Virus record (IMG/VR): IMGVR_UViG_3300018080_008426
Coordinates: 1 to 29,965 of that record
Strand: one strand, 5' to 3'
DNA length: 29,965 nt
DNA from: a virus
How positions within the stretch are numbered: position 1 is the stretch's first letter; each line of letters opens with the position of its first letter. Shown piece after piece: positions 3,895 to 27,704 of the stretch. A program made the position numbers and the translations under genes. A model generated the notes under the pieces. That model ran no database searches and had not been told where the DNA came from. It was given only the letters and a program-made list of their open reading frames with translations.

Positions 3895-3913
3895 TGTATT
3901 AACAGTTTTTACA
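3895..3913 (-). promoter_or_regulatory. Inverted repeat resembling the phage operator (one mismatch)
   Basis: TGTAT-N9-TTACA just upstream of the pentapeptide gene, overlapping the last codons of the helicase-loader gene. Together with its flank it closely matches the site at 27686-27704 (both read TGTATTAACA then, after 4 nt, TACATTCT). I see no convincing -35/-10 pair here, so a promoter is not claimed. Confidence 0.45.
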
Positions 3914-4520
3914 TTCTCAACCGCATGTCCTCGCCGCCGACCGGGACGAACTCGCCCATCTCCCTCAGCCGACCGACGATCCGCGGGCCGTACTCGTCAC
4001 CGAGCCACTGCTCCAGCGCGTCTGGCTCAAAGTTCGTGGTCACGACCGTCGGCGCCCTGGCGCGCAGCCTGCCGTCGATCAGAATGTACAGGCACTCCAG
4101 CGCGCGGTCAGTCCGCTTCTCAGCCCCAAGGTCATCCAAAACCAGGACGGGCACCTCGTCGGGGTCCGCCAGCCGCAGCACCTCGTCCGTGTCCCTGCGC
4201 GGGATGCAGACGGTCGGCAAAACCTGCGAGAACAGGCCGCGCTGGGTCACCATGAAGTGCGCGACCGCGTTCCCGAGATGGGTCTTGCCCACCCCGGTCG
4301 GACCGAACAGGACGGGAGGCTTCGACGCGAGCGGCTGCCCGAAGTGCGTGCACCAGTCTACGCACTTCGTCAGTGCCCTCGTCTTTCCCTTCAGCGACTC
4401 GAAAGTGTCGAATGTCATGCGGGGGTCGACTCCGCCCTCGGCGAACATCCGCTCAGTCGGTCCGCCACCGCCGGTCGAAGTCGCTCCCGGCTTTCGCGAT
4501 CCCTTTTTGCCCCTCGCCAT
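3909..4520 (-). CDS. DnaC/IstB-type helicase loader ATPase
   Basis: This AAA+ ATPase should load the phage DnaB helicase onto DNA. Walker A is GPTGVGKT (73-80), Walker B VLVLDDLG (D129, D130), sensor-1 region VVTTNF (N163), and a likely arginine finger in YGPRIVGRL (R180/R184). The first ~30 residues are a basic, Gly-rich tail ([10 protein letters not shown]). Length 203 suits a loader with a short N-terminal region. The start is fixed by AGGAGG 5 nt upstream; this makes its first 68 nt overlap the end of the upstream gene, a long overlap for this genome. Co-location with DnaB, DnaN and primase supports the role. Confidence 0.9.
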
Positions 4521-4794
4521 CCTTGCCTCCTGCGTACTGATCGACCTGCGCCAGGAACACCTTCAGCGGGTGTCGGCGCTGGGTCAGCCACCTGCTCCGG
4601 TCTGTCAAATAATTATACAGGCGCCTGCGTGCCTCGTCGAGCCCGAGCGCGTCGACGATCTCGGTCGCGTTGCGCCGGTCGCGCCCGGTCATGCGCGCGA
4701 GGCACGGCGAGCGGTACCTGCCCGCCCACCCCTCGCGGTAGCACTCCAGCAGCGCATTGACCAGGCGCTGAATCGATGAACGTCCGCGCGGCAT
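4453..4794 (-). CDS. Hypothetical basic protein between clamp and helicase loader (113 aa)
   Basis: It begins MPRGRSSIQRLVNALL. It is strongly basic and mostly helical by eye, with YREGWAGRYRSP and LYNYLTDRSRWLTQRRHPLKVFL as notable segments. It starts 4 nt after the sliding-clamp stop and runs 68 nt into the helicase-loader gene in another frame. Its place suggests a replication accessory role, for example DNA binding or a loader partner, but that is inference from position only. No family recognised. Confidence 0.7.
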   Translation of the reverse strand: MPRGRSSIQRLVNALLECYREGWAGRYRSPCLARMTGRDRRNATEIVDALGLDEARRRLYNYLTDRSRWLTQRRHPLKVFLAQVDQYAGGKDGEGQKGIAKAGSDFDRRWRTD

Positions 4795-4798
4795 GCTT

Positions 4799-6028
4799 TC
4801 ACATCCTCATCGGCATCACGAACGCCATGCGCCCGTGCCCTACGTCGATCACGTAAGGTCCGCCGCAAAATGCGGTTTCGCCCTTCACCTTCACCGGCCT
4901 GCCCCGGTCATCCTCGCCGTCCTCCAGGTCGTACTCCTTCACGTGAATCAGAACCTCCCCGTCCGCCACCGACAGCGGCTCGACAAGGTAGTTGACGTTC
5001 ACGTTCAGAGTCAACGGCCCGCCGTCCATCCGCGATACCTCCAGCGGCAACTCGACCTCGACCTCCGGGTCGTCGATGTCCTCGCGAGTCGCAGCGACGA
5101 CCGGCTTGCCGGACTCGATCCGGATCCTCACCCCGCCGTTCCGCTTCGGTGCGAATTTCGCCGCCTGCTTGATCGCCTTGAGCAGCGCCTTGCCGTCCTC
5201 GGCGTGAAGCAAAACCTCCGCCTTGGTGGTGGTCGGGTCCCAGATGACCTGCATGTACTCGGGGAACTGCCCGTCGATGTACCTGGTGATCAGCCTCCAG
5301 CCGTCCTCGGTCTCGATGTAGGCGTACTTCGGGTTGTCCCCGAACGTGCTGAATGAGTAGCCCGGGATCTCGCCCCTGCGGTTGCTCATGCGAACCAGGA
5401 AACCCATCGCCGCCGCCGGCAGGAGCGCGGTGCCGCTCAGCGCCGACGCGTCGACCACGTGGAGCCGGTGGCCGTCGGTCGCGACTATCTTGCCGCGCTC
5501 GCCGTCGAAGTACGCGGCGTTCAGGTTGTAGCGGGTCTCGTCCGTGCTCATGCACTGCGCGACGAACTTCAGGTCCGCACCCTCGTCGTCCTTGTCCGGG
5601 TCGCACTCGCAGACGACCTGCTCGTCCCCGTCCATTGACGGGACCGGCGGGAACTCCTCCGGGTCGACCGACCGCGGCAGCCTCACGGTCACGCCGACCG
5701 ACGCGACCGTGACACTCAGCGCCCCCGCGTCCCCGGATGCCAGCCTGACGGTCGTGTTCCCGGTCACCCCCGACAGCGCCTTGTGCAGGTCCTTCGACTT
5801 CACGCACGTGTCCAGCTCGCCCTCGACGACCTGGCTGCACTGATTGGTCAGCACGCGCGTCACGCGCGACTCCAGGTCCGTCGCCTCCAGCGTCAACCGA
5901 TCGCCGTCGCCCGTGATCCTGATTGTGTTGCACACTTCGAGCGTGCTGTTTCCCGTCAGGCGCTTCAACTCCGCGATCGTGTCTTTCAGTGTCGCGTAGT
6001 CAACCGTGTACTCCGATCTCTTTTTCAT
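4799..6028 (-). CDS. dnaN: DNA polymerase III sliding clamp (beta subunit)
   Basis: This is the ring-shaped processivity clamp that tethers a polymerase to DNA. Recognisable are the beta-clamp signatures ATDGHRLHVVDA (~residues 190-200), the preceding RYNLNAAYFDG, the later DGQFPEY segment, and a C-terminus ending MPMRM, close to the cellular MPMRL that forms part of the peptide-binding pocket. At 409 residues it is slightly longer than bacterial clamps, from an acidic insert (ECDPDKDDEGAD). GGGAGG lies 4 nt before the ATG. It heads a transcription unit with its own promoter (6062-6090) and an overlapping operator-like repeat. A phage-encoded clamp implies a polymerase gene outside this window or use of the host enzyme. 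Confidence 0.95.
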   Translation of the reverse strand: MKKRSEYTVDYATLKDTIAELKRLTGNSTLEVCNTIRITGDGDRLTLEATDLESRVTRVLTNQCSQVVEGELDTCVKSKDLHKALSGVTGNTTVRLASGDAGALSVTVASVGVTVRLPRSVDPEEFPPVPSMDGDEQVVCECDPDKDDEGADLKFVAQCMSTDETRYNLNAAYFDGERGKIVATDGHRLHVVDASALSGTALLPAAAMGFLVRMSNRRGEIPGYSFSTFGDNPKYAYIETEDGWRLITRYIDGQFPEYMQVIWDPTTTKAEVLLHAEDGKALLKAIKQAAKFAPKRNGGVRIRIESGKPVVAATREDIDDPEVEVELPLEVSRMDGGPLTLNVNVNYLVEPLSVADGEVLIHVKEYDLEDGEDDRGRPVKVKGETAFCGGPYVIDVGHGRMAFVMPMRM

Positions 6029-6051
6029 CTCGACCTCCCGTTCTCAGTTTT

Positions 6052-6069
6052 TGTATTAAGCATTATACA
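6052..6069 (-). promoter_or_regulatory. Candidate operator overlapping the dnaN promoter
   Basis: Perfect inverted repeat TGTAT-N8-ATACA, with the same arm sequence and spacing as the repeat in front of the helix-turn-helix gene (16057-16076). It covers the -10 box, as expected for a repressor site. Confidence 0.6.
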
Positions 6070-6090
6070 CTTCCTCGCTGACAAAGCAAA
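6062..6090 (-). promoter_or_regulatory. Promoter for dnaN
   Basis: On the minus strand, -35 TTTGCT (6085-6090), 17 bp, then -10 TATAAT (6062-6067). The -10 is perfect consensus. Transcription would start about 6055, giving a ~25-nt leader before the Shine-Dalgarno. Confidence 0.75.
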
Positions 6091-6112
6091 CTCTTTTTTC
6101 TTGGGTGGCGAT

Positions 6113-6147
6113 CTCCCCCCGCTGGCGGTTTTTGCCAGCGGGGGGAG
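6113..6147 (-). terminator. Strong hairpin between the SF2 helicase gene and dnaN
   Basis: A perfect 14-bp stem (ctccccccgctggc / gccagcggggggag) with a 7-nt loop. It lies downstream of the SF2 helicase gene and upstream of the dnaN promoter, where a terminator is expected. Neither side has a good U-run on the transcript, so termination may be Rho-assisted, or the stem may serve replication. Confidence 0.5.
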
Positions 6148-6291
6148 TCTCTCGGTATTTATTTTCACTCGTCGATCCCTTAACCTCACAGAAAAGTCTT
6201 TAACAAACTTTAACAACCTTAAAAGTGTTAACGGCCGATCGCTTATAGCTGACGCGCGCGACTACCTTATTAATAAGCAAGCGCATACGCG
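6148..6291. repeat. AT-rich non-coding segment with tandem repeats and a palindrome
   Basis: The segment holds tandem 10-mers CTTTAACAAA and CTTTAACAAC (6198-6217), then cttaaaagtgttaac, and a perfect 12-bp palindrome CTTATTAATAAG (6266-6277). No ORF or clear promoter is seen. It lies in the replication cluster next to dnaN, so a replication origin or regulator-binding region is possible. Confidence 0.45.
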
Positions 6292-7815
6292 TCACTCGAC
6301 TACCTCCAGGTCGCTGCAGACCGTCCGCAGGCCATTAAAAAACTTTTTCAGCTTGCGCTCCCTTCGCCGCTTCCCGTCGTCGTCGGAGTACCGCGGCCAC
6401 AGCTTTCGATCCCAGAAGTAAACCGCGACGCCCTCCTTTTTCCGCGACCCGTGCTTCCTCGCCGCCCGGCCGACCATCTGCGTCAGTCGCTTCGGGTGCT
6501 GGTGAACCGGGCAGGTCAGAATGACGTGCGTGAGGTTCGGTACGTCGAGCCCCTCGTCAGCCACCTTCGTTCCGATCCCGACCTTGATCTTCCCGGCACG
6601 CAGGCCGTCGATGGTCTTCTCCAGCATCTTCTTGTTCTCGGCCCCGCCGACCATCACGCCGGCCCGGATCCCGACCTTCCCGAGTCGCTGGTGCCAGTCG
6701 AAGCACGCCTCTACCCGCTCGGTCAGCATCAGGATCCTGGTGTCCCTGACGGACGCGATTTCGCGCACCTTCTCCAGGATTAGCGCGTTTCTGTCGTCGT
6801 CGTTCACCAGCCTGGTAACCATTCCCATCCAGTCGGGTATTTCGTTCGCGTCCCGGCTCGCCGCGTATTCCTCGTCGAAGTAATTTGTCGGCACGACCTC
6901 CATGCGAACCGAGACCAGCCGGTCAAGTTCGACAAGCTCCTCCTTCGTGATCTCGTGAGCGACCGGGCCAAACGTCTCGTGAAGCAGGTACTCTTTGCCG
7001 TCCTTGCGTTTGATTGTCGCTGAGCAGCCCCACCGCCACCTCGCCGGAAACATCTCGGCGACCGCGTTGTGGGTGCGTGCCGGGACGTGGTGGCATTCGT
7101 CGGTAACAATCAAGCCGAACTGATCTACCCAATGCGGAGGAGACTTCCCCATGTGGCGCCACAACGTCTGCTGTGTGGCGACCGTCACCGGCCTGATGTT
7201 TTCCTCTTTTCCGCCGCCAATCGTTCCGGCCGTGACCCCGAGGAACTCCGCGATCCTCGTCTCCCACTGCCGCATCAGCTCGCGCGTGTGCACGACGATC
7301 AGCACCGGCTGCCGCAGTCTAGCGATCGCGCCGATCATGCAGACCGTCTTGCCCCCGCCGCACGGGCCTTTCAGCACCCCGCCGGTCGTCAGGAGCAGGT
7401 CGTCAACCGCTCGCTCCTGGAACGGGTACAGGTCCTTCTTGAGCCGCAGGTCCACCTCCTCATGCTTGACCGTGCGGTCCCAGATTGGTCTCATCTCCAT
7501 TTTACGGCCGTCGAGAATTTTCCTGACTTCAGACAGCACCCCGCGCGGCAGGAGTAGCCAGCCGTCCTCGATTCGCCACGATCTGATCTTCGGGTCGATG
7601 TCTCCGGTCCACACCCCCATCGCGCGCTTCTTGAAGAACTCCGGGTTGTCGTGCGTGTACCTCGCGCGCAGCGCCGCGGCAGTCCCGGAGCCCAAATCGT
7701 CCAGGTTCAGCCGCAGGTGGGTGTCCAGGACGGCCCTGACGGTCATTTTCCGCCCGTCTAAGGCCCTCAGACCCCTCTGAGCGGGTTGGTTAGCGTCTGT
7801 TCCCTTCGGACGCAT
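6292..7815 (-). CDS. SF2 DNA helicase (DEAH-like, XPB/UvsW type)
   Basis: An ATP-dependent helicase or translocase for recombination, repair or origin activation. Motif I is GPCGGGKT (150-157), motif II DECHH (239-243), motif III SAT (GCSATIKRKDG), and motif VI QMVGRAARKHG near the C-terminus, with a VGIGTKVADEGLDVP segment typical of motif V. The N-terminal ~120 residues include a segment (IRSWRIEDGWLLLPRGV) resembling the N-terminal region of UvsW/XPB-type enzymes. I chose the ATG at 7815 (MRPKGTDANQ) because AGGAGG lies 7 nt upstream; an upstream in-frame alternative start would remove that spacing. It follows a small Cys-rich gene and is the last gene before the non-coding segment at 6.1-6.3 kb. 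Confidence 0.92.
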   Translation of the reverse strand: MRPKGTDANQPAQRGLRALDGRKMTVRAVLDTHLRLNLDDLGSGTAAALRARYTHDNPEFFKKRAMGVWTGDIDPKIRSWRIEDGWLLLPRGVLSEVRKILDGRKMEMRPIWDRTVKHEEVDLRLKKDLYPFQERAVDDLLLTTGGVLKGPCGGGKTVCMIGAIARLRQPVLIVVHTRELMRQWETRIAEFLGVTAGTIGGGKEENIRPVTVATQQTLWRHMGKSPPHWVDQFGLIVTDECHHVPARTHNAVAEMFPARWRWGCSATIKRKDGKEYLLHETFGPVAHEITKEELVELDRLVSVRMEVVPTNYFDEEYAASRDANEIPDWMGMVTRLVNDDDRNALILEKVREIASVRDTRILMLTERVEACFDWHQRLGKVGIRAGVMVGGAENKKMLEKTIDGLRAGKIKVGIGTKVADEGLDVPNLTHVILTCPVHQHPKRLTQMVGRAARKHGSRKKEGVAVYFWDRKLWPRYSDDDGKRRRERKLKKFFNGLRTVCSDLEVVE

Positions 7816-7846
7816 CCTGCGGCCTCCTATGACCTCACATGTCCTT

Positions 7847-8035
7847 TCACGTCCACCCATTGTCCCAGATCGGCACCCACTCCTCGCAGTACCCGTCGCG
7901 GATCCGCTGGCGGTTCAGGTCCTTCGCCTTCGGAGTGCGCCGGCCCCGCCAGTTCTTTTCGTCGGCTGGGCACCTGTCACCGTTTTTGTTCTCGCACAGC
8001 TCGCACTTCAACTCGCCACTCTTGCCCCTCGGCAT
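7847..8035 (-). CDS. Small Cys-rich protein, paralogue of 12359-12547 (62 aa)
   Basis: MPRGKSGELK is followed by C11-x2-C14, C22 and a late C50-E-E-W-V-P. The 62-residue protein at 12359-12547 has the same length, the same start (MPRGK), C10-x2-C13, C19 and C44-V-D-W-A-P, so the two are probably paralogues with one metal site. The ATG follows AGGGAGG. Function unknown; binding nucleic acid or a host protein is possible for such small zinc folds. Confidence 0.75.
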   Translation of the reverse strand: MPRGKSGELKCELCENKNGDRCPADEKNWRGRRTPKAKDLNRQRIRDGYCEEWVPIWDNGWT

Positions 8036-8054
8036 GACCGGCCTCCCTGGATGT

Positions 8055-8603
8055 TCAAAGAATTGTGCACTGCATTCTTTCTTCGAGAAAATTGATTACC
8101 TCATCCTCGCACAGCGGCCAGAACCTGTGTACGTCCACTCCGACATTGAACGACTTGCCATTCCACAGCCACTTCTCGTGAACGTGCCCACAAAGTATGA
8201 AGTCCCACTCGTCCGGGTCGATGCTTTTGTCGTGATCGCCGTACGGATCCGGCGTACCCTTCGGATAAACTGGCCGGTGGTTGAGAACACAGTTGTACCC
8301 ACCAATCTTCAACGGGAGATTCGCGTGCCATTCGTCGACCGCGTCGAGCGTCTTCTTTTTGTCATGGTTTCCCTTTATCAGGACAATTCTCCCGTTTAGA
8401 CTCTCGACAAAATTCTGCATGTCCCGACCCCTCGGGAAACACAGGTCCCCAAGATGGTAGACGTTATCGTTCCGACTTATAATGCCGTTCCACCTGCGCT
8501 TGAGGTCACGATCCATAAACCACGCGTTCTCGTACGGTCGTCCGGTGTACTTGATTATATTCGCGTGACCGAAATGGTGGTCAGCCGTGAAGAAATTAGC
8601 CAT
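8055..8603 (-). CDS. Metallophosphoesterase (calcineurin-like)
   Basis: A two-metal phosphoesterase. All family motifs are visible: D-H-H (8-10, in ADHHFGH), GDL (52-54), GNHD (78-81), H109 (LNHRP) and GHVH (139-142), so it should be active. Members of this compact group (~180 aa) act as phosphodiesterases, nucleotidases or phosphatases; the substrate here cannot be read from sequence. The start at 8603 (MANFFTADHH) follows GGAGGAG; a longer in-frame start would add 19 non-conserved residues. A large hairpin lies just upstream of the ribosome site. Confidence 0.92.
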   Translation of the reverse strand: MANFFTADHHFGHANIIKYTGRPYENAWFMDRDLKRRWNGIISRNDNVYHLGDLCFPRGRDMQNFVESLNGRIVLIKGNHDKKKTLDAVDEWHANLPLKIGGYNCVLNHRPVYPKGTPDPYGDHDKSIDPDEWDFILCGHVHEKWLWNGKSFNVGVDVHRFWPLCEDEVINFLEERMQCTIL

Positions 8604-8617
8604 GCTCCAACTCCTCC

Positions 8618-8654
8618 AGCTGCTCGCGGTGCTTTTCCCACCAGGCGAGCAGCT
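8618..8654 (-). promoter_or_regulatory. Intergenic hairpin directly upstream of the phosphoesterase ribosome site
   Basis: Arms AGCTGCTCGC (8618-8627) and GCGAGCAGCT (8645-8654) pair perfectly; inside, GGTG/CACC adds 4 more bp with a 2-nt bulge. It fills most of the 53-nt gap and ends next to GGAGGAG. There is no U-run, so it is more likely an RNA-stability or translation element than a terminator. Confidence 0.5.
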
Positions 8655-8656
8655 TG

Positions 8657-8845
8657 TCACGCTCCAACGCGACCCGCGACCTCGGCGAGCGTCTTTTCCA
8701 ATTCCATCACGCGAGCGCGCAGGATCTTGATCCGCTTGTACAGCGCCGTGTTCTCGTCGCGCGTGTCGCGCAGGCCCGAGTACAGGTGCATGGTCAACTC
8801 GCTGGTGATTCGGTCGTGCTTCTTTTTGCGCTTGAATAGTGGCAT
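8657..8845 (-). CDS. Small coiled-coil protein (62 aa)
   Basis: It begins MPLFKRKKKHDR, a basic N-terminus, followed by a long predicted helix with heptad-like spacing (TALYKRIKILRARVMELEKTL). It starts at an ATG that shares its A-T-G with the stop of the upstream gene (TGATG), pointing to translational coupling; AGGAA lies 6-10 nt upstream. No family recognised. It could form a dimer that binds nucleic acid or the membrane, but this is inference from composition. Confidence 0.65.
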   Translation of the reverse strand: MPLFKRKKKHDRITSELTMHLYSGLRDTRDENTALYKRIKILRARVMELEKTLAEVAGRVGA

Positions 8846-9300: not shown

Positions 9301-9317
9301 TTTCGGTCTCCCTTCTC

Positions 9318-11405: not shown

Positions 11406-11442
11406 GATTGCCTCCCTGTTTCCGTTCGCCCCTCCCGTTTTG

Positions 11443-11486: not shown

Positions 11487-11538
11487 TCGCGCGACCCGGG
11501 GTCTGCTCTCGCGGTCCGCGCCAGGCCGCGCGTCATCT

Positions 11539-12375
11539 CTACGTCAAGACTCTCAATTTTCTAACGCGCAGTTTCATGTCGTTGCCGGGCAATCCAGCGA
11601 ACAATATGTCTTCACTGGCAACCTCGACTTCCAATGCGATGAGATCATGTTCGGCTTGGCAGAGTCCGCACCATTCGGGACGAATGCCGACTCTTAAGAC
11701 GTGCAGTCCTGGCGCACACTGTTGATCGCTCGCCTTGCCATCTGTTTCGACGACACTGCCGACCGGATATTCGACTCGTGTGCCACCATCAAAGTTTGGT
11801 GAAAATCGGTCGTGTGTGACCCACTTCCAGAATCGATGCGTTTTCTTTTGACGATAGACGGTGCGGTATAGTTCAGCCAAGTCGTTTGATGTCATTCCGT
11901 CACCGAGTTTTACCCTGTCACCGAGTTTTACCCTGTCACCGAGTTCTACCCCGTCACCGAGGTTTACCCAGTTACCGAGTTTTACCCCGTTACCGAGTTT
12001 TACCCTGACACCGAGTTTTACCCCGTCACCGAGTTTTACCCTGTCACCGAGTTTTACCCAGTCACCGAGTTCTACCCTGTCACCGAGTTTTACCCAGTCA
12101 CCGAGTTTTACCCCGTTACCGAGTTTTACCCCGTTACCGAGTTTTACCCCGTTACCGAGTTTTACCCCGTCACCGAGTTTTACCCTGTCACCGAGTTTTA
12201 CCCTGTCACCGAGTTTTACCCTGTCACCGAGTTTTACCCTGTCACCGAGTTTTACCCAGTCACCGAGTTTTACCCTGTCACCGAGTTCTACCCTGACACC
12301 GTTTGGCGAAACGTGCCATCCATGTTTATTTTTCTTCCACTTGCGAATTTCGTCTACTTTAGCTGGATAAATCAT
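11539..12375 (-). CDS. Hexad-repeat (VKLGDx) protein with C-terminal companion domain
   Basis: After a 28-residue lead (MIYPAKVDEIRKWKKN), residues 29-160 are 22 tandem hexads of the form V-K/E-L-G-D/N-R/W/G. The 6-residue period with small residues and alternating charge suggests a left-handed beta-helix-like solenoid, though the classical [LIV]-G-x4 pattern is only partly met. Residues 161-278 are a separate domain with C220, G223-L-H225, W235 and ALEVEV (247-252), matching the non-repeat domain of the pentapeptide protein at 3259-3879, where it is N-terminal. AGGGAGG lies 5 nt upstream of the ATG. It overlaps the previous gene by 17 nt and is followed by a terminator. Function unknown. Confidence 0.85.
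   Translation of the reverse strand: MIYPAKVDEIRKWKKNKHGWHVSPNGVRVELGDRVKLGDWVKLGDRVKLGDRVKLGDRVKLGDRVKLGDGVKLGNGVKLGNGVKLGNGVKLGDWVKLGDRVELGDWVKLGDRVKLGDGVKLGVRVKLGNGVKLGNWVNLGDGVELGDRVKLGDRVKLGDGMTSNDLAELYRTVYRQKKTHRFWKWVTHDRFSPNFDGGTRVEYPVGSVVETDGKASDQQCAPGLHVLRVGIRPEWCGLCQAEHDLIALEVEVASEDILFAGLPGNDMKLRVRKLRVLT
11896..12291 (-). repeat. Coding 18-bp tandem repeats (22 units)
   Basis: Twenty-two copies of an 18-bp unit, read on the plus strand as accgagttttaccctgtc and variants, encode the VKLGDx hexads. Substitutions are shared between neighbouring units (for example runs of ccgtta), as expected from slippage or unequal crossing-over. It is not a CRISPR: there are no spacers. Confidence 0.95.
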
Positions 12376-12568: not shown

Positions 12569-12587
12569 TGTTTAATTTGATTATACA
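12569..12587 (-). promoter_or_regulatory. Operator-like inverted repeat (one mismatch)
   Basis: TGTTT-N9-ATACA overlaps the -10 box of the promoter at 12580-12608, in the same register as the repeats at the dnaN and regulator promoters. It is the weakest of the five sites together with the one at 3895-3913. Confidence 0.35.
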
Positions 12588-12625: not shown

Positions 12626-12640
12626 GTTTGTCAAATAATT

Positions 12641-13417
12641 TTACACCGCCGTGAACCGGAGCAGGCCCTTCTTGGGGTTGATCTCGATGGTGACCTCCAG
12701 GCCACCGATCTCGACGACCGCCTGCTTCGTCCACCCGGCCTTCTTGGCATTGCCCTTCGTTGCCGCCAGCTTGGTCTGACCCTTCTCGACGTCACGCGGT
12801 TTGGGCGCCTTCGCCGGCTTCGGCTTGCTGCTCTTGCTGGCCGACCTCGAGGCGGTCGGGTTGTCGGTCGTGAGCCCGCCGTTGTGGTGAGTGATCGCCA
12901 GCTTGGCCTCCTTCTTGTCGGCCTTCGCCGACTCGGCCTTCTCGGCCTCCTTCTTCTGCCGCAGTCCGCGCATGACCTCGGTGGTCGACACGCCGTCGGT
13001 CACGAGGCGCATGACCTCCTTCTGCACCTTGTCGCCCTCCTTGACCACCGCATACGAGAGCGACGGTCCGAGCCGGAGTGCCTGCTCGCGGGTCAGGCTC
13101 TCGGCGACGGAGATGCAGTTGTAGACGGTCTGCCTAGTCGGGCCTTTCCCGGCCTGGTGGATCTCCTGCTCGCAGTAGTCCTGGAAGGACTTGAATTCGG
13201 CCGCCTTCCACAGCCGGTCGTCCCGGATCACCTTCCAGGCGCACCCGAGGGAATAGAACCGACCGCCGATCTCGGAGATGTCCCGGCGAATCTGCTCCGC
13301 CAGCTCGTTGTATCGGTCGAGCAGCTTCGCGTGCTCGACGCTGCCCTTGGTGCGGTCCTGGACGACGACCTTCTTCTCCTTCTTTGCTGCCTTCTTTTTC
13401 GTCTCTTTCTTCGCCAT
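12641..13417 (-). CDS. Lys/Ala-rich protein with possible DUF3102-like DNA-binding domain (258 aa)
   Basis: Residues 1-22 are a Lys-rich tail (MAKKETKKKAAKKEKK). Residues ~35-110 contain RRDISEIGGRFYSLG ... FKSFQDYCEQE ... TRQTVYNCISVAESL, which resembles the pattern of DUF3102-type phage/plasmid proteins (an iterative EIG...L...W...TAQRYMxVAE helix-turn-helix). The region ~130-220 is Lys/Ala/Pro-rich and probably disordered, and the last ~30 residues form a small beta-rich unit (VVEIGGLEVTIEINPKKG). The ATG at 13417 follows AGGGAGG; a longer in-frame start is unlikely. It may bind DNA. Its unit starts at the promoter at 13752-13781. Confidence 0.7.
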   Translation of the reverse strand: MAKKETKKKAAKKEKKVVVQDRTKGSVEHAKLLDRYNELAEQIRRDISEIGGRFYSLGCAWKVIRDDRLWKAAEFKSFQDYCEQEIHQAGKGPTRQTVYNCISVAESLTREQALRLGPSLSYAVVKEGDKVQKEVMRLVTDGVSTTEVMRGLRQKKEAEKAESAKADKKEAKLAITHHNGGLTTDNPTASRSASKSSKPKPAKAPKPRDVEKGQTKLAATKGNAKKAGWTKQAVVEIGGLEVTIEINPKKGLLRFTAV

Positions 13418-15295: not shown

Positions 15296-15574
15296 TTAGT
15301 ATCCCAAACAGTCGTCTTCGCTACCATCACCGAGTCGGATGCCGTCGATGCCACGGTGACGGCGGACGGGCTTGCTGCTCTGCGGGGCACCCTGCTCTGC
15401 GGCCTGCCGGCGGGCAGCTTTCTTGGCATCCGCCTGGGCTTTGCGCTGGTCTTTCCCGTACTCGCTCACGATCTCTGCCCGCTCATCCTCGGGGATGGCC
15501 AGCCACTCTTTGAGGGTCATGGTCCGACCACAAAAGTCCCGCCGTTCGTTCAACTGTTCCTCTGTCCAGGTCAT
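15296..15574 (-). CDS. First gene of the early unit, hypothetical (92 aa)
   Basis: It begins MTWTEEQLNERRDFCG. The first ~45 residues are acidic and helical (MTLKEWLAIPEDERAEIVSEYG), the middle is Lys/Ala/Gln-rich (QRKAQADAKKAARRQ), and the end is acidic. The start follows AAGGAG by 6 nt; a longer in-frame start at 15667 lies upstream of the promoter and is unlikely. Being the first gene downstream of the strongest promoter seen, it is probably expressed immediately on infection. No family recognised. Confidence 0.75.
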   Translation of the reverse strand: MTWTEEQLNERRDFCGRTMTLKEWLAIPEDERAEIVSEYGKDQRKAQADAKKAARRQAAEQGAPQSSKPVRRHRGIDGIRLGDGSEDDCLGY

Positions 15575-15612
15575 GTCCGTCTCCTTTTTGGCTTCTTGGT
15601 TTTTCGTATTCC

Positions 15613-15640
15613 GTATCATGTCTGCTATATTAAATGATAC
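15613..15640 (-). promoter_or_regulatory. Inverted repeat over the early promoter
   Basis: GTATCAT (15613-15619) and ATGATAC (15634-15640) are perfect 7-bp arms 14 bp apart, flanking the -10 box. Next to it the minus strand reads TAAACGTATCAT, one base longer than TAAACGATCAT in the operator of the HTH gene, which suggests binding by the same or a related regulator. Confidence 0.5.
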
Positions 15641-15655
15641 GTTTACGCTTGTCAA
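15627..15655 (-). promoter_or_regulatory. Early promoter, near consensus
   Basis: Minus strand: -35 TTGACA (15650-15655), exactly 17 bp, -10 TAATAT (15627-15632). It is the best promoter in the window and drives 15296-15574 and following genes. The ~150 nt upstream (15656-15808) is AT-rich. Confidence 0.85.
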
Positions 15656-15672
15656 GTTTATGCTCATTTTTC

Positions 15673-15789
15673 AACTCATTGTTTTTATTACATTTTATTT
15701 TTCTGGAGATCGTGGATCGGCCTGTAACTGCAATACAATGCGTCGAAACCCATATTTTGCGCTTTTCTTGTAACTCATTGATTTTATTA
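15673..15789. repeat. 18-bp direct repeat in the AT-rich gap 15575-15808
   Basis: aactcattgtttttatta (15673-15690) and aactcattgattttatta (15772-15789) differ at one base and lie 99 bp apart. The gap they sit in holds the early promoter and no gene I can support; a 27-codon ORF starts in the second copy but has no ribosome site. Confidence 0.6.
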
Positions 15790-15808
15790 GAAAAGAAAAT
15801 TTGTCGGA

Positions 15809-16042
15809 TTATTTTACAAATCCGCCGATCTGCAAAATCAGGGTCAGATGCCGGTCGGACGGCTGGTCCTTCCCTCGCCGCCAATTCCACAGCGCCTGAC
15901 GACTGACACCGAGTCGACGCGCGAGCGCCGCGTCGCTCCTACACCCGGACGCATGCGCAGCCACGAGCAGCAGCGCCTCGATGTCAGTCATCTCGATCGT
16001 CGCCCTCCCGAGATTCTTCGTCCTGGTCGTCACTGTCGCCAT
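15809..16042 (-). CDS. Small helix-turn-helix transcription regulator (77 aa)
   Basis: Residues ~30-70 carry a Cro/XRE-like HTH: RSDAALARRLGVSRQALWNWRRG, with the recognition helix in VSRQALWNW. A short basic N-terminus (MATVTTRTKN) precedes it, and there is no extra domain, as in Cro-like repressors. The start at 16042 is set by GGAGGT 5 nt upstream; longer in-frame starts lie upstream of the promoter. It has its own promoter (16068-16096), overlapped by an inverted repeat, so autoregulation is likely. It sits alone between the late-region terminator and the early promoter, the usual place for a switch regulator. Confidence 0.85.
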   Translation of the reverse strand: MATVTTRTKNLGRATIEMTDIEALLLVAAHASGCRSDAALARRLGVSRQALWNWRRGKDQPSDRHLTLILQIGGFVK

Positions 16043-16055
16043 CGCGCACCTCCGG

Positions 16056-16077
16056 TTTGTATAAACGATCATACAAA
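16056..16077 (-). promoter_or_regulatory. Candidate operator of the HTH regulator
   Basis: Inverted repeat with perfect 7-bp arms TTTGTAT and ATACAAA separated by 8 bp. It covers the -10 box and start point of the regulator's own promoter. Related repeats lie at 6052-6069, 27686-27704, 3895-3913 and 12569-12587. Confidence 0.65.
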
Positions 16078-16096
16078 ATTCCTTGTCATTTGTAAA
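16068..16096 (-). promoter_or_regulatory. Promoter of the HTH regulator
   Basis: Minus strand: -35 TTTACA (16091-16096), 17 bp, -10 TATGAT (16068-16073). The -35 begins just after the U-run of the late terminator. Confidence 0.8.
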
Positions 16097-16100: not shown

Positions 16101-16132
16101 AAAAATGCCCCCGGAGCCAACACTCCGGGGGC
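16101..16132 (-). terminator. Intrinsic terminator of the late operon
   Basis: Perfect 10-bp GC stem (gcccccggag 16107-16116 / ctccgggggc 16123-16132), 6-nt loop, then ATTTTT on the minus strand. It ends the tail/lysis transcription unit before the regulator promoter. Confidence 0.9.
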
Positions 16133-16261: not shown

Positions 16262-16465
16262 TCACTTCTCGCGCTCGGCCTTCGTCCCCCTCTTCGCGTA
16301 GTCGGTCGCGTACCACCCGCTGCCCTTGAGCTGAAAGTTGCACGGCGACACCTGGCGGACGAGCGCGCCTCCGCACTTCGGGCACCTGCCGGGGTCATCA
16401 GAGTACCCCTGCAGCCGCTCGATCTTTCGGCCGCACTCCGCGCACTTGTAGACGTAGACGGGCAA
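16262..16465 (-). CDS. FmdB-type zinc ribbon protein (67 aa)
   Basis: MPVYVYKCAECGRKIE, then CPKCGG, and FQLKGSGWYATDYA are the signatures of the FmdB/CxxC_CxxC regulatory family: two CxxC knuckles (C8, C11, C28, C31) and the conserved LKGSGWY.TDY. FmdB-like proteins are small metal-binding proteins of unclear role, often annotated as regulators. The start is a TTG with a poor upstream site 2 nt after the previous stop, so translation is probably coupled. It is the last gene before the late terminator, an unusual place for it, and may be a cargo gene. Confidence 0.88.
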   Translation of the reverse strand: MPVYVYKCAECGRKIERLQGYSDDPGRCPKCGGALVRQVSPCNFQLKGSGWYATDYAKRGTKAEREK

Positions 16466-17588: not shown

Positions 17589-18941
17589 TTATGGACCCTT
17601 TACAGGAGTATTTGGTAAATCACCAAAAACATCAAAAACGTAAGGCGCGTTTGGGCCAGTTGCCACGTCTGCATTATATGTTACAGCTACGCCCTGATCA
17701 TAATAATTCAAAAATGTCGGACTGAAATTGTCTATTGGATGTTTTACTTTGTTCCAGATATCGTGGGCGTCTTGAATGGACATGACATAACCATTATAAA
17801 ATCCATACCACCAAAATTTACAGTCTGCTGAATTTGCCCAAAGAGGCGTATTGCCGATCCGATAATCCACGGCTACATTTTGTGGAGGACCAAATGCATC
17901 ACCTCGTGTGGCTGTTTGTAAACCATTGTCTGCATCAACTGTAGTTATCCTCAAATCTGAAGTGCCGTCACCATCCCAATGATAAGAACAAACAACCAAC
18001 GATTTTCGACCACATGCCAATGGTCCAACTGGACCAGTATACAACTGGATAGTTCGCACGACAAAATTTAGTTTATAAACTGCGAATTGTATGCCTCCCG
18101 TAAATGTTGTGCCTCCGCCAAAACCACCATATTGAACCGAAAATTGGTACTGCCTGCCAGACAATCCTTTCGGTTTGCTATTCAAAGCAGGGACTACATT
18201 GGCAAATGGTTCAATTAGCATAGCAACTGAAAAATCTCCAGCGGGATCGAAATCCCCACCATACTCGCCTTGTGACTCCATCCAATCTTTTGGAGGAGGG
18301 CTATTACGTGAATGAAACTCCCAATAATGTGCGTCCAAATCTATGGGGGTGGCTTCAGAGGGGGTGGCTTCAGATGCGTCGTACCCGTAGACCCACCCGT
18401 ACGGATGCGCCTCGCTGCCGCCGTAATCGCCGTCGACGTCGCTATGCGCAACCACTTTCAACCGCATTCCCTCACGGATCGTGCTGATGCGAATATAGTC
18501 GGCCATCCGGCACTTCCACATCACGAACACGAGGTCTTCGCCGGTTGCGGCATACGGCCGGCGGCCGTATATCGTGAAGTACTGGGCGGTCGCCGACGGG
18601 GACGGGTAGTTGATCCTGCCCTCCGGCCAGTCGCCCTGCGCTGCCACCTTCGCCTCATCCGGCGCCCGATCGAGCAGCCACAGCAGGTTCTCCCGGTTCA
18701 ACTCCTCAACCCTCCCGGTGAACGTCATCTGCGTGGTGACTGTCGCCGCCTGGTCCGGCATGGTGCCGAACGCACGCAAACCGCGGTGGACTGCCATCTT
18801 ACGACGGACGTTGAGCTTGCCGTCCTTCACGCAGCCGACCCGCAGCGTGACGCCGTTGACCACCGCGTACAACTCAGTCCACTCGCCGACCAGCAGCGAC
18901 TCTCTGGAGACCGTTCCCTGCCTGTTGAAGTTGTGCGTCAT
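17589..18941 (-). CDS. Tail-tube paralogue fused to a C-terminal lectin/LamG-like domain (450 aa)
   Basis: Residues 1-185 are homologous to the tail tube protein 27789-28337: both have HNF at residues 3-5, then SLLVG-x-W-x-E-x-YA, TG-x-VEE-x-N, YFT-x-YG-x-R, and DVDGD-x-GGS ... P-x-GW near the end. Residues 190-199 are a SEATP duplication; residues ~205-450 look like a concanavalin-type jelly-roll (GRQYQFSVQYGG, LVVCSYHWDGDGTSDLRI, WYGFYNGYVMS), the fold of LamG and lectin modules that bind sugars. The C-terminal part is much more AT-rich than the N-terminal part. It directly follows 18942-20501 (TAAATG). Likely a distal-tail or receptor-recognition protein; assembly role is inferred. Confidence 0.8.
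   Translation of the reverse strand: MTHNFNRQGTVSRESLLVGEWTELYAVVNGVTLRVGCVKDGKLNVRRKMAVHRGLRAFGTMPDQAATVTTQMTFTGRVEELNRENLLWLLDRAPDEAKVAAQGDWPEGRINYPSPSATAQYFTIYGRRPYAATGEDLVFVMWKCRMADYIRISTIREGMRLKVVAHSDVDGDYGGSEAHPYGWVYGYDASEATPSEATPIDLDAHYWEFHSRNSPPPKDWMESQGEYGGDFDPAGDFSVAMLIEPFANVVPALNSKPKGLSGRQYQFSVQYGGFGGGTTFTGGIQFAVYKLNFVVRTIQLYTGPVGPLACGRKSLVVCSYHWDGDGTSDLRITTVDADNGLQTATRGDAFGPPQNVAVDYRIGNTPLWANSADCKFWWYGFYNGYVMSIQDAHDIWNKVKHPIDNFSPTFLNYYDQGVAVTYNADVATGPNAPYVFDVFGDLPNTPVKGP
18345..18374 (-). repeat. Perfect 15-bp tandem duplication at the domain junction
   Basis: gggggtggcttcaga occurs twice back to back and encodes SEATP-SEATP (residues 190-199). It lies exactly where the GC-rich tail-tube-like part meets the AT-rich lectin-like part. 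Confidence 0.95.
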
Positions 18942-23500: not shown

Positions 23501-23731
23501 AAACCTGGCGCCCTCGTCTCCGTTGTAGCTCACGAAGTCGCCGCTGCGCTCAACCTCAATTGCCAGTTCCTGCCGCGAACGCACATAATCGGCAACACCG
23601 ACAAATCCGGTGGGTCCACTATTCCCGCTGTCCGGCTCGGGTATTCTCAAAACATACGCCTCAGCCATCGGCCGATCGATGAACTGCACCTCTTTGTTGT
23701 CGCGCATGGCGCTCATCATGATCCTGCGCAT
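20498..23731 (-). CDS. Large distal-tail-like protein with sialidase Asp-boxes and jelly-roll (1077 aa)
   Basis: The N-terminal ~100 residues and C-terminal ~200 (RYPRVRLTLNVNNL ... RARIDQWREVAPERRKIDL) look like two halves of a distal tail (Dit) protein around a very large insert. The insert contains Asp-boxes at 226-233 (SYDCGSNW) and 278-285 (SDDGGFTW) plus a degenerate one near 326-334, typical of BNR beta-propellers of sialidases, and later (~480-640) a jelly-roll-like region (TARFEVKTISGRAGVDVRL). Such 'evolved Dit' proteins carry sugar-binding modules. No complete sialidase active site is visible, so binding is more likely than cleavage. The ATG at 23731 follows GAGGAGGG, 1 nt past the tape-measure stop. 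Confidence 0.75.
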   Translation of the reverse strand: MRRIMMSAMRDNKEVQFIDRPMAEAYVLRIPEPDSGNSGPTGFVGVADYVRSRQELAIEVERSGDFVSYNGDEGARFTVEPDFLRDDDEDDVVDDLNPMGGERKDVPVLTQTLTAVDNDVQLSSPRIIKLEKWAKLTADRGNIGLLGVVRWTGSGNAPTILFWTLNEYNDHGGLPIVNCQWDYNATMGMSPTETSTQAPGFDMVELDDGSIVTVFSTNNALYFYKSYDCGSNWVKVGEITGLITDRYWVALDRIGSRLVVVYSRTWAGPNYGVYSSTSDDGGFTWSSADTVTTEVVANSEVNLDLARGQDGVMYLVFNRSNVAYASKTLDGQNWSTPITTGVDADAGLSISQEYHGLWALYSTDVLAGGDIGLTEQHADDEEGAYTANWTSGGTVANGDTDSDGLDDDQISARFLNGSGFLDVVVLKHDNHSGTDYYCLQVYRLAMWCGVQFDSAVTGWSVVWTPHAYPSTNDGHPNLNLWTEVTGTGAIANDSENDFYHMEITNGAATNKNYRWPAAGTDGWYDSGATARFEVKTISGRAGVDVRLTSAGSNASVHFALFFYTDRIVLYDVHAAAIVQTFTPTNWDPSDWSEYVIIAFENEMQLFRAPSSHYREVAHYELTVSSDTLQEDAYAGAGDSKVQWGSSAFGGTVASESHWRSMMVTNEDAFDVDWDFSACVGKKCHYNPVGILQGIACKWTGNFAIDGDTWEFDVGAQFDADNILVASPRICFADPEDASARSGTIVIDWRRHEGDESTCMNFAFDSIAVFGLNMPMFKLEGGDFAGTSWTTIWCNALPIPGRGGPFIYDSTLTVIGTPDQNSVRFGSGASNLSDWPLPNQFASTEYRKWYVAFVGGTCNGKIYRIDGNNPNRLFLECNVEADGVADGDTFTIFSDRFLHIFDKQYRYPRVRLTLNVNNLTPSPSEDTVKVGTVVLGQTYDLPNDEWESSITTEAGVEVTTGRARIDQWREVAPERRKIDLTYTGRVDRGMGVDIVSELYRHARWGVYPVVWIDDDTALTPCTNTCSEASEMSHTDPILARVGGPMSRRRKFYSYEEQDGAYHIRGVGDVGGIVLEEVL

Positions 23732-23732
23732 G

Positions 23733-26573
23733 CTATGCCCTCCTCGGTTTCCAGCCCGGCACGGAATTGCCGCCAACAAGTCGACGCATTTTTCCAGTTC
23801 CCTGACGAACAAGTTCAGCCTGCATCTCGTCAACGACCTGCGCACTGTCGCGAGCGAACATGTGCTGCGGCTTGAACACCAAATTGTACGTGTCGCCGCC
23901 CCTCATCTCCCCGCGATTCAGCGAGTTGACGAAATCCTCCCCACCCATCGCTGCAACGACTTCGCGCCGAATGACGCCCTCGCCGGCCTGTAGAATAGCC
24001 GGAACGTCACCAGGTGCAAGTGACGGTCTTACGAACAGACCACTGTGCGCCTTGATGACATTCGAGAACATGCCGGCGCTTCTGCTCATGTTGTTAGCTG
24101 CCTTCACAAAGCCACCTTCGTGGAACCACGACCCGATCCACTCTCCGATGCCCTTACCAATATCGGCCACGAAACCCGCTGCGTGCCCAAGAATCGGAAC
24201 AGCATCTCCCCACTTTTGAGTCAGGTCCATGCCACCGCCGAACGTGAGTAGGTTGCCAATCGCACGCGCAACCGCCTCGGCCAAGGCTAATGCGATCTCC
24301 GGAATCCTATGAATAATTACCGCAATGATGTCAGGAATGCGATCGGTGATTGTGTCAATGATGTCCGGAATGTGCTCAACGAACGCATCTATGATCATCG
24401 GGATGCCTTCGTCGATCAAGTAGTCGAGCACCGGCCCGATGTTCTCCGCGAGCATCTCCCAGAAGTGGACCATCTGCTCGGTTGTCGCTCGAACGTCATC
24501 GACGTTCGCCCCTGCAAGTCCCATCTCAAACAAATCACCAATCTGACCGAAAGGCTTGGCGATGGCACCCAGACCAGTCTCGGCCATGCCGAGCAGCTTC
24601 TCTCCAAGCGCCTCCTTGAATCCACGTGCGATGTCGTCCCACCATGTTGGTTCGGATTGCAACTTTTTTTGTGCCTCCGCGAACGCGTACGCTCGACGCT
24701 CCTCGACAGACTCCAACTCCGCCCCGCCTATCTGCTGATACCAGGAGTCGACCCCGCGTTTCGCGAACTCGTCGGCGAACTTAAGCAGGTCGGCGCGCTT
24801 CTTGGTGAGCGTGTCCACTAGCGCCAGACCCGAGGACGTCCCTGCGCGAGTCAGCGCATCGATCACTCCGGCTGAAATGAAGCCGGCACCGAATGGCGCA
24901 CCTGTTCCGGTGATGTCCTCGGGGAGCAGCTTCGGGCCTTTGCCGCTCGGTGGTTTCTTCTTGCCCTTCGGCTTCTCGCCCGGTGGCGCATAACCAGGCA
25001 TGAAGAACTGCGTCCACTCCTGCGGGGTCTTGAACAACTGGCCTTCCAGTAGACCACCCTGTGCCAGCATGTTCTCGACCATCAACTCCCACGCCTTTTT
25101 TCCCTTCTCTTTGGACTCAAGTTTCTCACGTACGTGCGCAAGCGGATCGTCCGGAATGGTGGCAACCGCGATCGCAATCGCCGACAATCTTCCGATTGTC
25201 GTCAGCAAGGACGTGTTCGCCTTTCCAATCCAACTGACCCATGTCTTCAACTTACCAATCGCCCAGACTGTGGCAAGAGTCTTCGCGATCTTCTCGCCAT
25301 GCTCAAGAATGAACTTGCCGAGTCCGACAATCGCGTCGAACGCACTCTCGACAAACTCCTTGATCTCGTCGCCGTGATTCTCGACCCACTTCCCGACGTC
25401 CTGCATCTTCTGCAGCAACATCGGAATCAGTTTCTTGCCGATGCTGATGAAAACATCGTTTACGACGTTCCAGAATTTCTTGGTCTGAAACTCGAACGTA
25501 TTCGACATCTTCTTGTACGCCTCATCGGTGGCTCCGGCCGCGTTGTTCATCTCAACCAGCGATGACTTGAACTTGCCGATGCCGGAACCGGCCAGCACGG
25601 CGAGACCTTGGATGGCCTCCTGTTCGATCCCCAGTTTTTGCATCATGATGGTGCTGCCGCCAGTCACGTCGTTCAGGGCCTCCAACGCCGCGGTGAACCC
25701 CTTGGTCTCCAAGATGTCGGAAATCGTGGTGCCCATCCTGGCCTTCATGGCCTTGTCGAGTTCCTTGTTGCTCTTGGCCGCCACCCTGATTATGCCGTTC
25801 ATGGCGGTGATCGCCCGCTGCGCGGGAACGCCGAGTGCGGTCATGGCCGCAATCGCCGCGTTGACCTCCTCAAATGACACGCCGGATCCGGCAGCCGCAG
25901 ACGTCACCATGCCGATGCTGCTACTCAACTGCTGGAAGTTGATCTTGCCCAACTTGACGGTCGAGAACAGGATGTCGCTGAACTTGGTCGCGTCGTCCGT
26001 ACTTCTACCGTACGCGTTCAACGCAGTAGTCAGCACGTCGACGGCCGAGAACGTGTCGGACACGCCGGCCACTGCGACCTTGTTCGCGGCACCGAGCAGG
26101 TCCATCGCCCCGGCCGCCTCCTCGGTTCCCTTGGTGCCGGCCGAGATCACCTGGTACAGGCCCTTTGTAAGTTCCCCAGCGCTCGCCGACGTGGTCTTCG
26201 CCATGTCGCGGATCGCCTTCTCAAACTTCCGCATCTTCGGTTCGGCCTTGTCACCGAGCAAGGTGCTGACCTCAGCCAGTTTGGTCTCGAAGTCAGCCGC
26301 GGCCTTGACCGACTTGTAGATCGACGCGGTGAGCGCCCCGAATCCAGCAATCCCCGCATACTTGACCATCTTCTTGGCGAAGCTGCCGATCTTGTTCGAC
26401 GCCCTCTCGAACGCCTTCTCCATCTTGGAGCCGGCCTTCTTGCCCTCGTCCCCGGTCTTCTTGGTCTGGTCCTCCAGCTTGTCGAGCCGCTTGATCAGGT
26501 CGTCGATGTTCTTGACCAGGTTCTTCTGTTCCGCGACAAATTGCAGGACGAGGTCTTCGGATTTCGTCGCCAT
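23733..26573 (-). CDS. Tail tape measure protein (TP901 type)
   Basis: It sets tail length and takes part in DNA ejection. Residues ~85-300 are the TP901 core: FETKLAEVSTLLGD, then KGLYQVISAGTKGTEEAAG, ALNAYGRSTDDATKFSD, SIGMVTSAAAGSGVSFEEVNA and GVPAQRAITAMNGIIR-type segments. The N-terminal ~50 residues are a coiled coil (DDLIKRLDKLEDQTKK). Several hydrophobic stretches follow at ~415-480 and ~750-830. With 946 residues and ~0.15 nm per residue, the tail would be about 140 nm. No peptidoglycan-cutting domain is seen. It starts one base after the previous stop (TAGATG). Confidence 0.93.
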   Translation of the reverse strand: MATKSEDLVLQFVAEQKNLVKNIDDLIKRLDKLEDQTKKTGDEGKKAGSKMEKAFERASNKIGSFAKKMVKYAGIAGFGALTASIYKSVKAAADFETKLAEVSTLLGDKAEPKMRKFEKAIRDMAKTTSASAGELTKGLYQVISAGTKGTEEAAGAMDLLGAANKVAVAGVSDTFSAVDVLTTALNAYGRSTDDATKFSDILFSTVKLGKINFQQLSSSIGMVTSAAAGSGVSFEEVNAAIAAMTALGVPAQRAITAMNGIIRVAAKSNKELDKAMKARMGTTISDILETKGFTAALEALNDVTGGSTIMMQKLGIEQEAIQGLAVLAGSGIGKFKSSLVEMNNAAGATDEAYKKMSNTFEFQTKKFWNVVNDVFISIGKKLIPMLLQKMQDVGKWVENHGDEIKEFVESAFDAIVGLGKFILEHGEKIAKTLATVWAIGKLKTWVSWIGKANTSLLTTIGRLSAIAIAVATIPDDPLAHVREKLESKEKGKKAWELMVENMLAQGGLLEGQLFKTPQEWTQFFMPGYAPPGEKPKGKKKPPSGKGPKLLPEDITGTGAPFGAGFISAGVIDALTRAGTSSGLALVDTLTKKRADLLKFADEFAKRGVDSWYQQIGGAELESVEERRAYAFAEAQKKLQSEPTWWDDIARGFKEALGEKLLGMAETGLGAIAKPFGQIGDLFEMGLAGANVDDVRATTEQMVHFWEMLAENIGPVLDYLIDEGIPMIIDAFVEHIPDIIDTITDRIPDIIAVIIHRIPEIALALAEAVARAIGNLLTFGGGMDLTQKWGDAVPILGHAAGFVADIGKGIGEWIGSWFHEGGFVKAANNMSRSAGMFSNVIKAHSGLFVRPSLAPGDVPAILQAGEGVIRREVVAAMGGEDFVNSLNRGEMRGGDTYNLVFKPQHMFARDSAQVVDEMQAELVRQGTGKMRRLVGGNSVPGWKPRRA

Positions 26574-26987
26574 CTACTTCCCCTTCTTCGGAGGTACCCG
26601 GCGGATCTTGCCCTTCCCGAGGTAAGGCTGGAGCGAGCGCATCGGCCCGTCGAGGTCGACAACCTTGTTGAACTGCTTCACCCTGCGGCCACGCGGGTCA
26701 TACCTGACCTTCTGCTGGTACCACTCTGGCAGGCCCCTTGTGCCCGTTTGACGCCCCTCCTTGGGCACCTGCGCGCCCGTAGACGCACCCGCACCTGCGC
26801 GAGGGTGTCCGCCTTTAGGCGACTTGCCGCCGAGGCCCCTGAAGACCTCGTTGAGCACGAGGAACTTGTCCCGCACGTAAGTCGCCATGATATGCATGAC
26901 TTGCCGGTAGGTGTAGTCGTTCGCCACCCTGAACTCCGTTGTCTGCCGGGCATTCGCGACGACTGTCAACATCTCGATCTGCGTCAC
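26574..26987 (-). CDS. Tail assembly chaperone, downstream partner (137 aa)
   Basis: It lies between the chaperone gene and the tape measure, where the second chaperone frame (gpT-like) of lambda-like phages lies. It begins with GTG inside the upstream stop (GTGA). The N-terminal ~50 residues are helical (TYRQVMHIMATYVRDKFLVLNEV); the rest is Gly/Lys/Arg-rich (LPYLGKGKIRRVPPKKGK-type end). Its frame is -1 relative to the upstream gene and stays open upstream of GTG, so it could also be made as a frameshift extension. Independent translation by coupling is equally possible. Confidence 0.65.
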   Translation of the reverse strand: MTQIEMLTVVANARQTTEFRVANDYTYRQVMHIMATYVRDKFLVLNEVFRGLGGKSPKGGHPRAGAGASTGAQVPKEGRQTGTRGLPEWYQQKVRYDPRGRRVKQFNKVVDLDGPMRSLQPYLGKGKIRRVPPKKGK

Positions 26988-27664
26988 CCGGTCTTGTTCT
27001 GCTCTGCCGGCTCCCCCGCCTCGTCTTCCTTCTTCTCCGAGAGCAGCTTCGCGACGGGGGTCCAGTAGTTTTTTACCAGTCCGACGACGTCGTTAACCTC
27101 GACGACCGCCTTCAGAACCTGCTGCTCCTGCGGGAGCGTCAGGCTGTTCTTCACGAATTCGAACATCGCCGGGCAGTACTCGTACCCGTGGGCCTTGTCG
27201 GTGGCGGTCTGCTTCGGGTTGTCCAGGCCGGCTCGCTTGCGATTGTCGAGCGTGTCCAGCGCGAGGCAGGACACAAGCGTCAGGTCGTTCGACAGGAGCT
27301 TGAAGACGAGTTCCTTGACCTGGCCCGCCACCGCCCCGACGTCCATCTCGTCGGAGTCGGCGAGTGCCTTGTGCTGCTCGGACAGGACGTCGGCGAGCTT
27401 GTTCCGGATCTCGTCGTCCGACTTGCCCGACTTCTTCATCTCCGCGCTGACCCTGGTCATCTCGGCCATCATCTCCGCGTTCGCACGCCGGCTGGAGCGC
27501 ATCGCCTCCAGGAACGGGCCGACTATCTTGGCCGCGTCCAGCTTGTCGAGCAGCACCTTGACGACCGCGTCGCGCTTTGCCACGGTGAACTCGTCCACCG
27601 CCAGGGTTTCCTTGCCGACTGCCACCTTTCTGCTCTTGGGCATGAAGTCCGTCATGGTCTCCAT
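26984..27664 (-). CDS. Tail assembly chaperone (226 aa)
   Basis: By position between tail tube and tape measure, and by its acidic/helical make-up, this should be the gpG-like chaperone that binds the tape measure during tail assembly. Segments seen: TVAKRDAVVKVLLDKLDAAKI, RANAEMMAEMTRVSAEMKK and an acidic end (LLSEKKEDEAGEPAEQNKTG). The start at 27664 (METMTDFMP) follows AGGAGGAG; in-frame TTG upstream is rejected. It has its own leader with an operator-like inverted repeat (27686-27704), the only such site in the late region. Confidence 0.75.
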   Translation of the reverse strand: METMTDFMPKSRKVAVGKETLAVDEFTVAKRDAVVKVLLDKLDAAKIVGPFLEAMRSSRRANAEMMAEMTRVSAEMKKSGKSDDEIRNKLADVLSEQHKALADSDEMDVGAVAGQVKELVFKLLSNDLTLVSCLALDTLDNRKRAGLDNPKQTATDKAHGYEYCPAMFEFVKNSLTLPQEQQVLKAVVEVNDVVGLVKNYWTPVAKLLSEKKEDEAGEPAEQNKTG

Positions 27665-27685
27665 GTTCTCCTCCTGTTCTAGGTT

Positions 27686-27704
27686 TGTATTAACAAAATA
27701 TACA
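27686..27704 (-). promoter_or_regulatory. Operator-like inverted repeat and weak promoter before the chaperone gene
   Basis: TGTAT-N9-ATACA with perfect arms. The minus strand carries a -10-like TATATT (27697-27702) inside the repeat, but no good -35 at 17 bp, so a promoter here would need an activator. Match to the site at 3895-3913 is striking, also in its flank. Confidence 0.5.

Follow-up and report, generated by a model that had tools for sequence, protein, structure and literature searches.

IMG/VR record IMGVR_UViG_3300018080_008426 is a viral contig of 29,965 bp, analysed here over its full length (the window); it is probably a fragment, with part of the phage genome lying outside the record. 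Inverted repeats of the form TGTAT-N8/9-ATACA recur in front of several of its genes, which raises the question of whether these repeats are operators of a single phage regulator and, if so, which protein reads them. There is good support for a single regulator that recognizes the same dyad at several transcription units of the phage: the set of five is closed, all its members lie in leaders, and three share one register relative to the -10 box. We therefore favor, with a probability of about 0.66, the interpretation that all five serve as operators for a single dimeric regulator of the phage, which is most likely a 77-amino-acid (77-aa) Cro-like helix-turn-helix (HTH) protein encoded within the window.

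A preliminary description of this DNA had placed such repeats at five positions upstream of minus-strand genes, and all five were located there, three of them exact and two with one mismatch. Operator 1 (16056-16077; 22 bp) has 7-bp arms, TTTGTAT/ATACAAA, around an N8 core, with TGTAT/ATACA itself at 16058-16075 (minus-strand sequence TGTATGATCGTTTATACA); the lower end of this 16058-16075 core lies 16 bp above the start codon of the HTH gene (16042). Operator 3, in the dnaN leader (6052-6069; TGTATAATGCTTAATACA), is also exact with an 8-bp spacer and lies 24 bp above the start codon at 6028, and operator 5 (27686-27704; TGTATATTTTGTTAATACA) is exact with a 9-bp spacer, 22 bp above 27664. The two copies with a mismatch, operator 2 (12569-12587; TGTATAATCAAATTAAACA) and operator 4 (3895-3913; TGTAAAAACTGTTAATACA), both have 9-bp spacers and end 22 bp above 12547 and 16 bp above 3879, respectively; operator 4 overlaps the stop codon of the upstream helicase-loader gene. 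Two sites have an 8-bp spacer and three a 9-bp spacer, all five dyads and the start codons below them are on the minus strand, and in each case a Shine-Dalgarno sequence and then the start codon follow downstream. No sixth site with a spacer of 8 or 9 bp was found in the window. A candidate at about 29474-29527 proved to be a separate small inverted repeat around the Shine-Dalgarno sequence of gene 28886-29473.

We asked how readily such a set could arise as chance AT-rich matches in leaders that hold -10 boxes. By our gene list, only 1814 bp of the window (6%) is noncoding and 94% is coding, yet all five dyad centers fall in noncoding DNA and none in a gene. Whole-window dinucleotide shuffles give an expectation of 0.02 exact copies against the three observed. 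When genes and intergenic DNA were shuffled separately (n = 300), 0.01 exact copies were expected (maximum 1), and 0.33 near copies (maximum 2) against the five observed when up to one mismatch is allowed; the counts are far above expectation under three null models. The pattern had been picked post hoc, after reading of the sequence, and a look-elsewhere test was therefore added, in which 7 of 300 shuffles produced some 5-bp-arm family with at least three intergenic copies. This cost speaks for a chance origin, but the doubt is removed by the two additional near copies, by the uniform position of the dyads 16-24 bp above start codons, and by a leave-one-out scan with a half-site matrix, in which every left-out dyad ranked first of 59,793 positions with a score of 20-29 bits, whereas the second-best position reached 12.9-14.4. 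Similarly, the left arm TGTAT alone picks out five leaders (6028, 12547, 16042, 27664 and 29473); in three of these the right arm at N8/9 is perfect, and in one more it has a single mismatch. With all five copies in leaders, we consider a chance origin scarcely credible. Each dyad ranks first in the leave-one-out scan, with so wide a gap in score below it that the window can be taken to hold just these five.

The dyads also bear a defined relationship to promoters. The HTH gene has a sigma-70-type promoter on the minus strand, TTTACA-17-TATGAT (16068-16096; 10 of 12 hexamer positions), which lies just downstream of a strong intrinsic-terminator-like hairpin (16107-16132, minus strand; 11 pairs, then ATTTTT) that closes the late/lysis block. 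The dyad at 16058 covers the -10 hexamer TATGAT of this promoter, and the dyads at 6052 and 12569 lie on TATAAT boxes with poor -35 elements; at all three sites the dyad begins in one common register at the -10 box and extends over the start region. The earlier statement that the repeats lie over promoters thus holds for 16058, 6052 and 12569, where the overlap with the -10 box is clear, but not for 27686, which has no recognizable -35 element, or for 3895, which has no convincing promoter.

Such an arrangement might also be expected if the motif were the promoter itself, that is, an unusual -10 element with a conserved start or initial-transcribed element, TTAATACAAAC, whose symmetry is incidental. 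The coincidence of the left half with TATAAT or TATGAT at three sites fits this idea, as do the better conservation of the downstream half and the single orientation of all five copies. It is difficult to reconcile, however, with the two dyads that stand without recognizable promoter hexamers, and a right half that mirrors the left by chance is unlikely. Moreover, the dyad is not simply the promoter signature of this phage, because a good promoter, TTGACT-18-TATACT at 13781-13752, lacks it. We therefore judge an explanation by promoter sequence alone to be improbable. Much less probable still is that the inverted repeats act as hairpins in leader RNA that control stability or translation. Their location 16-24 bp before start codons would suit such a role, but the predicted folds are weak and are not common to the sites (minimum free energies of -3.3 to -7.7 kcal/mol), between 13 and 138 of the 200 shuffles give a fold that is equally good or better, no Rfam family matches, and the transcription start point is probably inside the dyad.

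What protein, then, might bind these sites? The strongest candidate is the 77-aa protein encoded at 15809-16042 on the minus strand, with a recognition helix around SRQALWNW. It is a member of the Cro/CI (XRE, lambda-repressor-like) class by both domain and fold: Pfam assigns HTH_3 (23.5 bits; cut-off 23) and Phage_CI_repr (23.1; cut-off 22), PHROG assigns phrog_638, a transcriptional regulator (1.9e-9), and the predicted model has four helices in a lambda-repressor-like fold, with a core pLDDT (predicted local distance difference test) mostly above 90. The best Foldseek matches of this model are P22 C2, HipB, DdrO and SinR, with Xylella Cro close behind; the match to P22 C2 has a probability of 1.00 but an E value of 0.04. 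In VIA, the top rows are Aca7, HigA2, ImmR and Aca10 at Z 6-7, tied within about one Z unit with many XRE folds, and these matches of a predicted model show the class of the protein rather than its function. As is usual for the Cro/CI class, a dyad lies over the protein's own promoter, making 16056-16077 a candidate operator; this dyad has both the longest arms and the top matrix score of the five (31.8). Given its class and the location of the best site in its own leader, it is plausible that the HTH protein is the regulator that reads the dyads, a link made through position and fold. The 8-bp spacing is acceptable for an XRE dimer because the operator of the XRE antitoxin HipB, TATCC-N8-GGATA, has that geometry, with 5-bp arms and an 8-bp spacer read by a dimer (PMC3376134).

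The same observations could be accommodated if the dyads are operators but their binder is another protein, either a host regulator or a phage repressor encoded outside the fragment, and the HTH gene is just another target. The record may be a fragment, neither an integrase nor a full-length CI was seen among the genes examined in the window, the fold matches are of a kind common to the whole XRE class, and the sequence offers no direct link between protein and DNA. On the other hand, the gene whose leader holds the strongest site encodes a DNA-binding protein of the right class, which is the usual layout of autoregulation, and no other typical repressor was recognized among the profiled genes of the window, only an FmdB-like zinc ribbon (16262-16465). 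We consider a different binder unlikely.

In weighing the assignment of the sites to the HTH protein, several observations count against it. The dyad at 27686 has a TATATT but no recognizable -35 element, and that at 3895 has neither a convincing promoter nor a recognizable -35 element. The occurrence of both 8- and 9-bp spacers is a mild difficulty, being awkward for a rigid dimer, although a variable spacer is reported for the repressor of phage BPs (PMC4557955); the 9-bp form is unexplained. The protein is tied to the dyad by position and fold only; no homologue with its own operator was found in phage records or viral contigs, and a scan for the recognition helix as RQA.WNW returned 32 loci with a few real HTH proteins, none of which has this dyad upstream, though these proteins are otherwise unrelated to the 77-aa protein. 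Finally, further regulators may be encoded outside the window.

The distribution of the sites suggests what such a regulator could control. Every called gene in the window runs leftward, from tail genes that include the tape measure, through small membrane- or lysis-like genes, to the HTH gene and a replication half encoding a UvrD-type helicase, a second helicase, a phosphoesterase, DnaN, a helicase loader, a pentapeptide protein, a DnaB-type helicase and primase. The dyads split this early half into four blocks (16042-12641, 12547-6292, 6028-3909 and 3879 onward). Operator 2 heads the block with the UvrD-type helicase, phosphoesterase and second helicase, operator 3 heads the block whose first gene encodes the DnaN-like sliding clamp (4799-6028, minus strand; phrog_947, 7e-42), and operator 4 heads the pentapeptide-dnaB-primase block. 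Operator 5 heads a block made up of a 226-aa gene (26984-27664), the downstream frame that overlaps it and the gene for the tape measure protein; neither the 226-aa gene nor the overlapping frame has a PHROG match, and from gene order they are a possible tail-chaperone/frameshift pair. The preliminary description had the HTH protein controlling its own gene, replication through dnaN and one late point, and as far as location is concerned this agrees with what we find: four sites fall in the half with the early and replication genes, and the fifth precedes the tape-measure block.

If the HTH protein does bind these sites, a dimer on the -10 and start region would keep RNA polymerase off the promoter, so that the protein would repress its own gene and, to match, the helicase, dnaN and dnaB/primase blocks. 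Early genes would then be shut off or throttled as the protein accumulates, by analogy with lambda Cro. At the two promoter-poor sites, the bound dimer might instead block a weak promoter or halt read-through transcription as a roadblock, which is the least certain part of the proposal. A broader version, in which a tiny Cro-like protein serves as a genome-wide dosage controller of the phage replisome (clamp, helicases, helicase loader and primase) and of one tail-assembly point, with one dyad acting both as promoter-blocking operator and as intra-operon roadblock at promoterless sites and with 8- and 9-bp spacers both tolerated, appears doubtful to us. Were the proposal correct, replication and one assembly step would be tuned by one autoregulated protein through a site common to the HTH, sliding clamp, helicase/primase and tail blocks.

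Several other features of these leaders and blocks were noted. A second, 17-bp motif, TGTAWAATWATTTGACA, an imperfect dyad of the form TGT..AAT-W-ATT..ACA, occurs on the minus strand at 4603-4619, 12629-12645 and 15802-15818; 0.02 matches are expected, although the motif was defined from those same three copies. The first copy contains the TATAAT promoter above the helicase-loader gene, the second contains TTGACA and lies 60 bp above operator 2, and the third is on the stop codon of the HTH gene. The 263-bp noncoding gap above dnaN (6029-6291) holds GTTAA-rich direct repeats (GTTGTTAAAG and TTTGTTAAAG) and a long GC hairpin and is a candidate replication origin, and an AT-rich gap below the HTH gene (15668-15808) carries a repeated stretch (TAATAAAATCAATGAGTTACAAG / TAATAAAAACAATGAGTTGAAAA). 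Among the proteins, gene 11539-12375 contains 22 in-register copies of a repeat with an 18-nt period (LGDRVK hexapeptide, beta-helix type), and repeats are also present in the pentapeptide gene (3259-3879; 15-nt period) and in gene 1-501 (12-nt period, AESAAWS). The tail-region genes 17589-18941 and 27789-28337 have in common an N-terminal stretch, HNF..G....SLLVG.W.E.YA, and a GDYGGS/GDHGGS segment, and likely represent a duplicated tail domain.

Relatives in which the dyads might be conserved were sought by several approaches, in collections that may omit very near records. Megablast of 23 kb against phages returned no relative by DNA, tblastn of the HTH protein and of the 1077-aa tail-region gene gave no match in phage records, and scans of viral contigs with the HTH, DnaN, tape measure and UvrD-type proteins as queries (the DnaB-type protein was not a query) found none either. 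The DnaN, UvrD-type, DnaB and tape-measure proteins share only about 21-34% identity with their closest homologues in phages, and none of the 80 loci in a DnaN alignment has more than two genes in common with this phage. DNA scans of viral and genome contigs for the motif with a Shine-Dalgarno sequence gave mostly AT-rich, chance-like matches and no locus with the gene set of this phage. Two other dyads came to light: a GC-rich 9.8-kb viral contig (L050), with terminase similarity to Arthrobacter phages, has TGTATG-N7-CATACA dyads at 7438, 7749 and 9355, at least two of the three in gene leaders, and possibly represents an analogous operator set in an unrelated phage; and TGTATGAGCAATCATACA is common to three viral contigs (L025, L049 and L059), in L025 directly before a start codon. 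The present set provides putative operators, together with a candidate regulator, for a phage lineage that has no close relatives in these collections.

Finally, we compared this arrangement with known systems. The E. coli-type LexA (SOS) box has the consensus CTGT-N8-ACAG, and the dyads are not boxes of this type, as TGT and ACA are 12 or 13 bp apart here. One example of a LexA box is printed in PMC4655474. The Aca autorepressors are likewise small phage HTH proteins that act via inverted repeats, and Aca7, Aca10 and Aca1 are among the tied fold matches; however, their sites are known from acr operons rather than replication blocks, and no anti-CRISPR gene was identified here. PADLOC gives no match for the neighboring small proteins (15296-15667 and others), 15296-15667 has no PHROG match, and no acr was recognized among them. 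HipB shares the arm length and 8-bp spacing but belongs to chromosomal toxin-antitoxin autoregulation, with four clustered operators and another arm sequence (PMC3376134).

Dispersed phage operators under one repressor are already known. In mycobacteriophage BPs, the repressor gp33 is reported to act at five regulatory regions along the genome through half-sites with a variable spacer, a parallel in the number of regions and in spacing, although each half-site there is a 12-bp palindrome and gp33 is a larger protein that forms tetramers (PMC4557955). The stoperators of Cluster A mycobacteriophages are also scattered along the genome, all pointing the same way with respect to transcription, and only part of them are at promoters, but they are 13-bp asymmetric sites numbering up to about 30 per genome (PMC6550527); the five dyads in 30 kb found here are symmetric and all in leaders, and do not belong to a system of that type. 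In SPbeta, a repeated intergenic element, SPBRE, occurs at many phage promoter regions under one master repressor, MrpR, but this is a protein of tyrosine-recombinase fold and SPBRE is a 15-bp motif (PMC10516654). The lambdoid Cro/CI systems (lambda Cro, P22 C2) offer a small HTH protein of the same fold and dyad operators over its own and early promoters. In the present phage, by comparison, the sites are spread over more than 20 kb, one to each transcription unit, and all genes have the same direction; the window shows no divergent repressor partner, and the spacing between the symmetric arms is wider.

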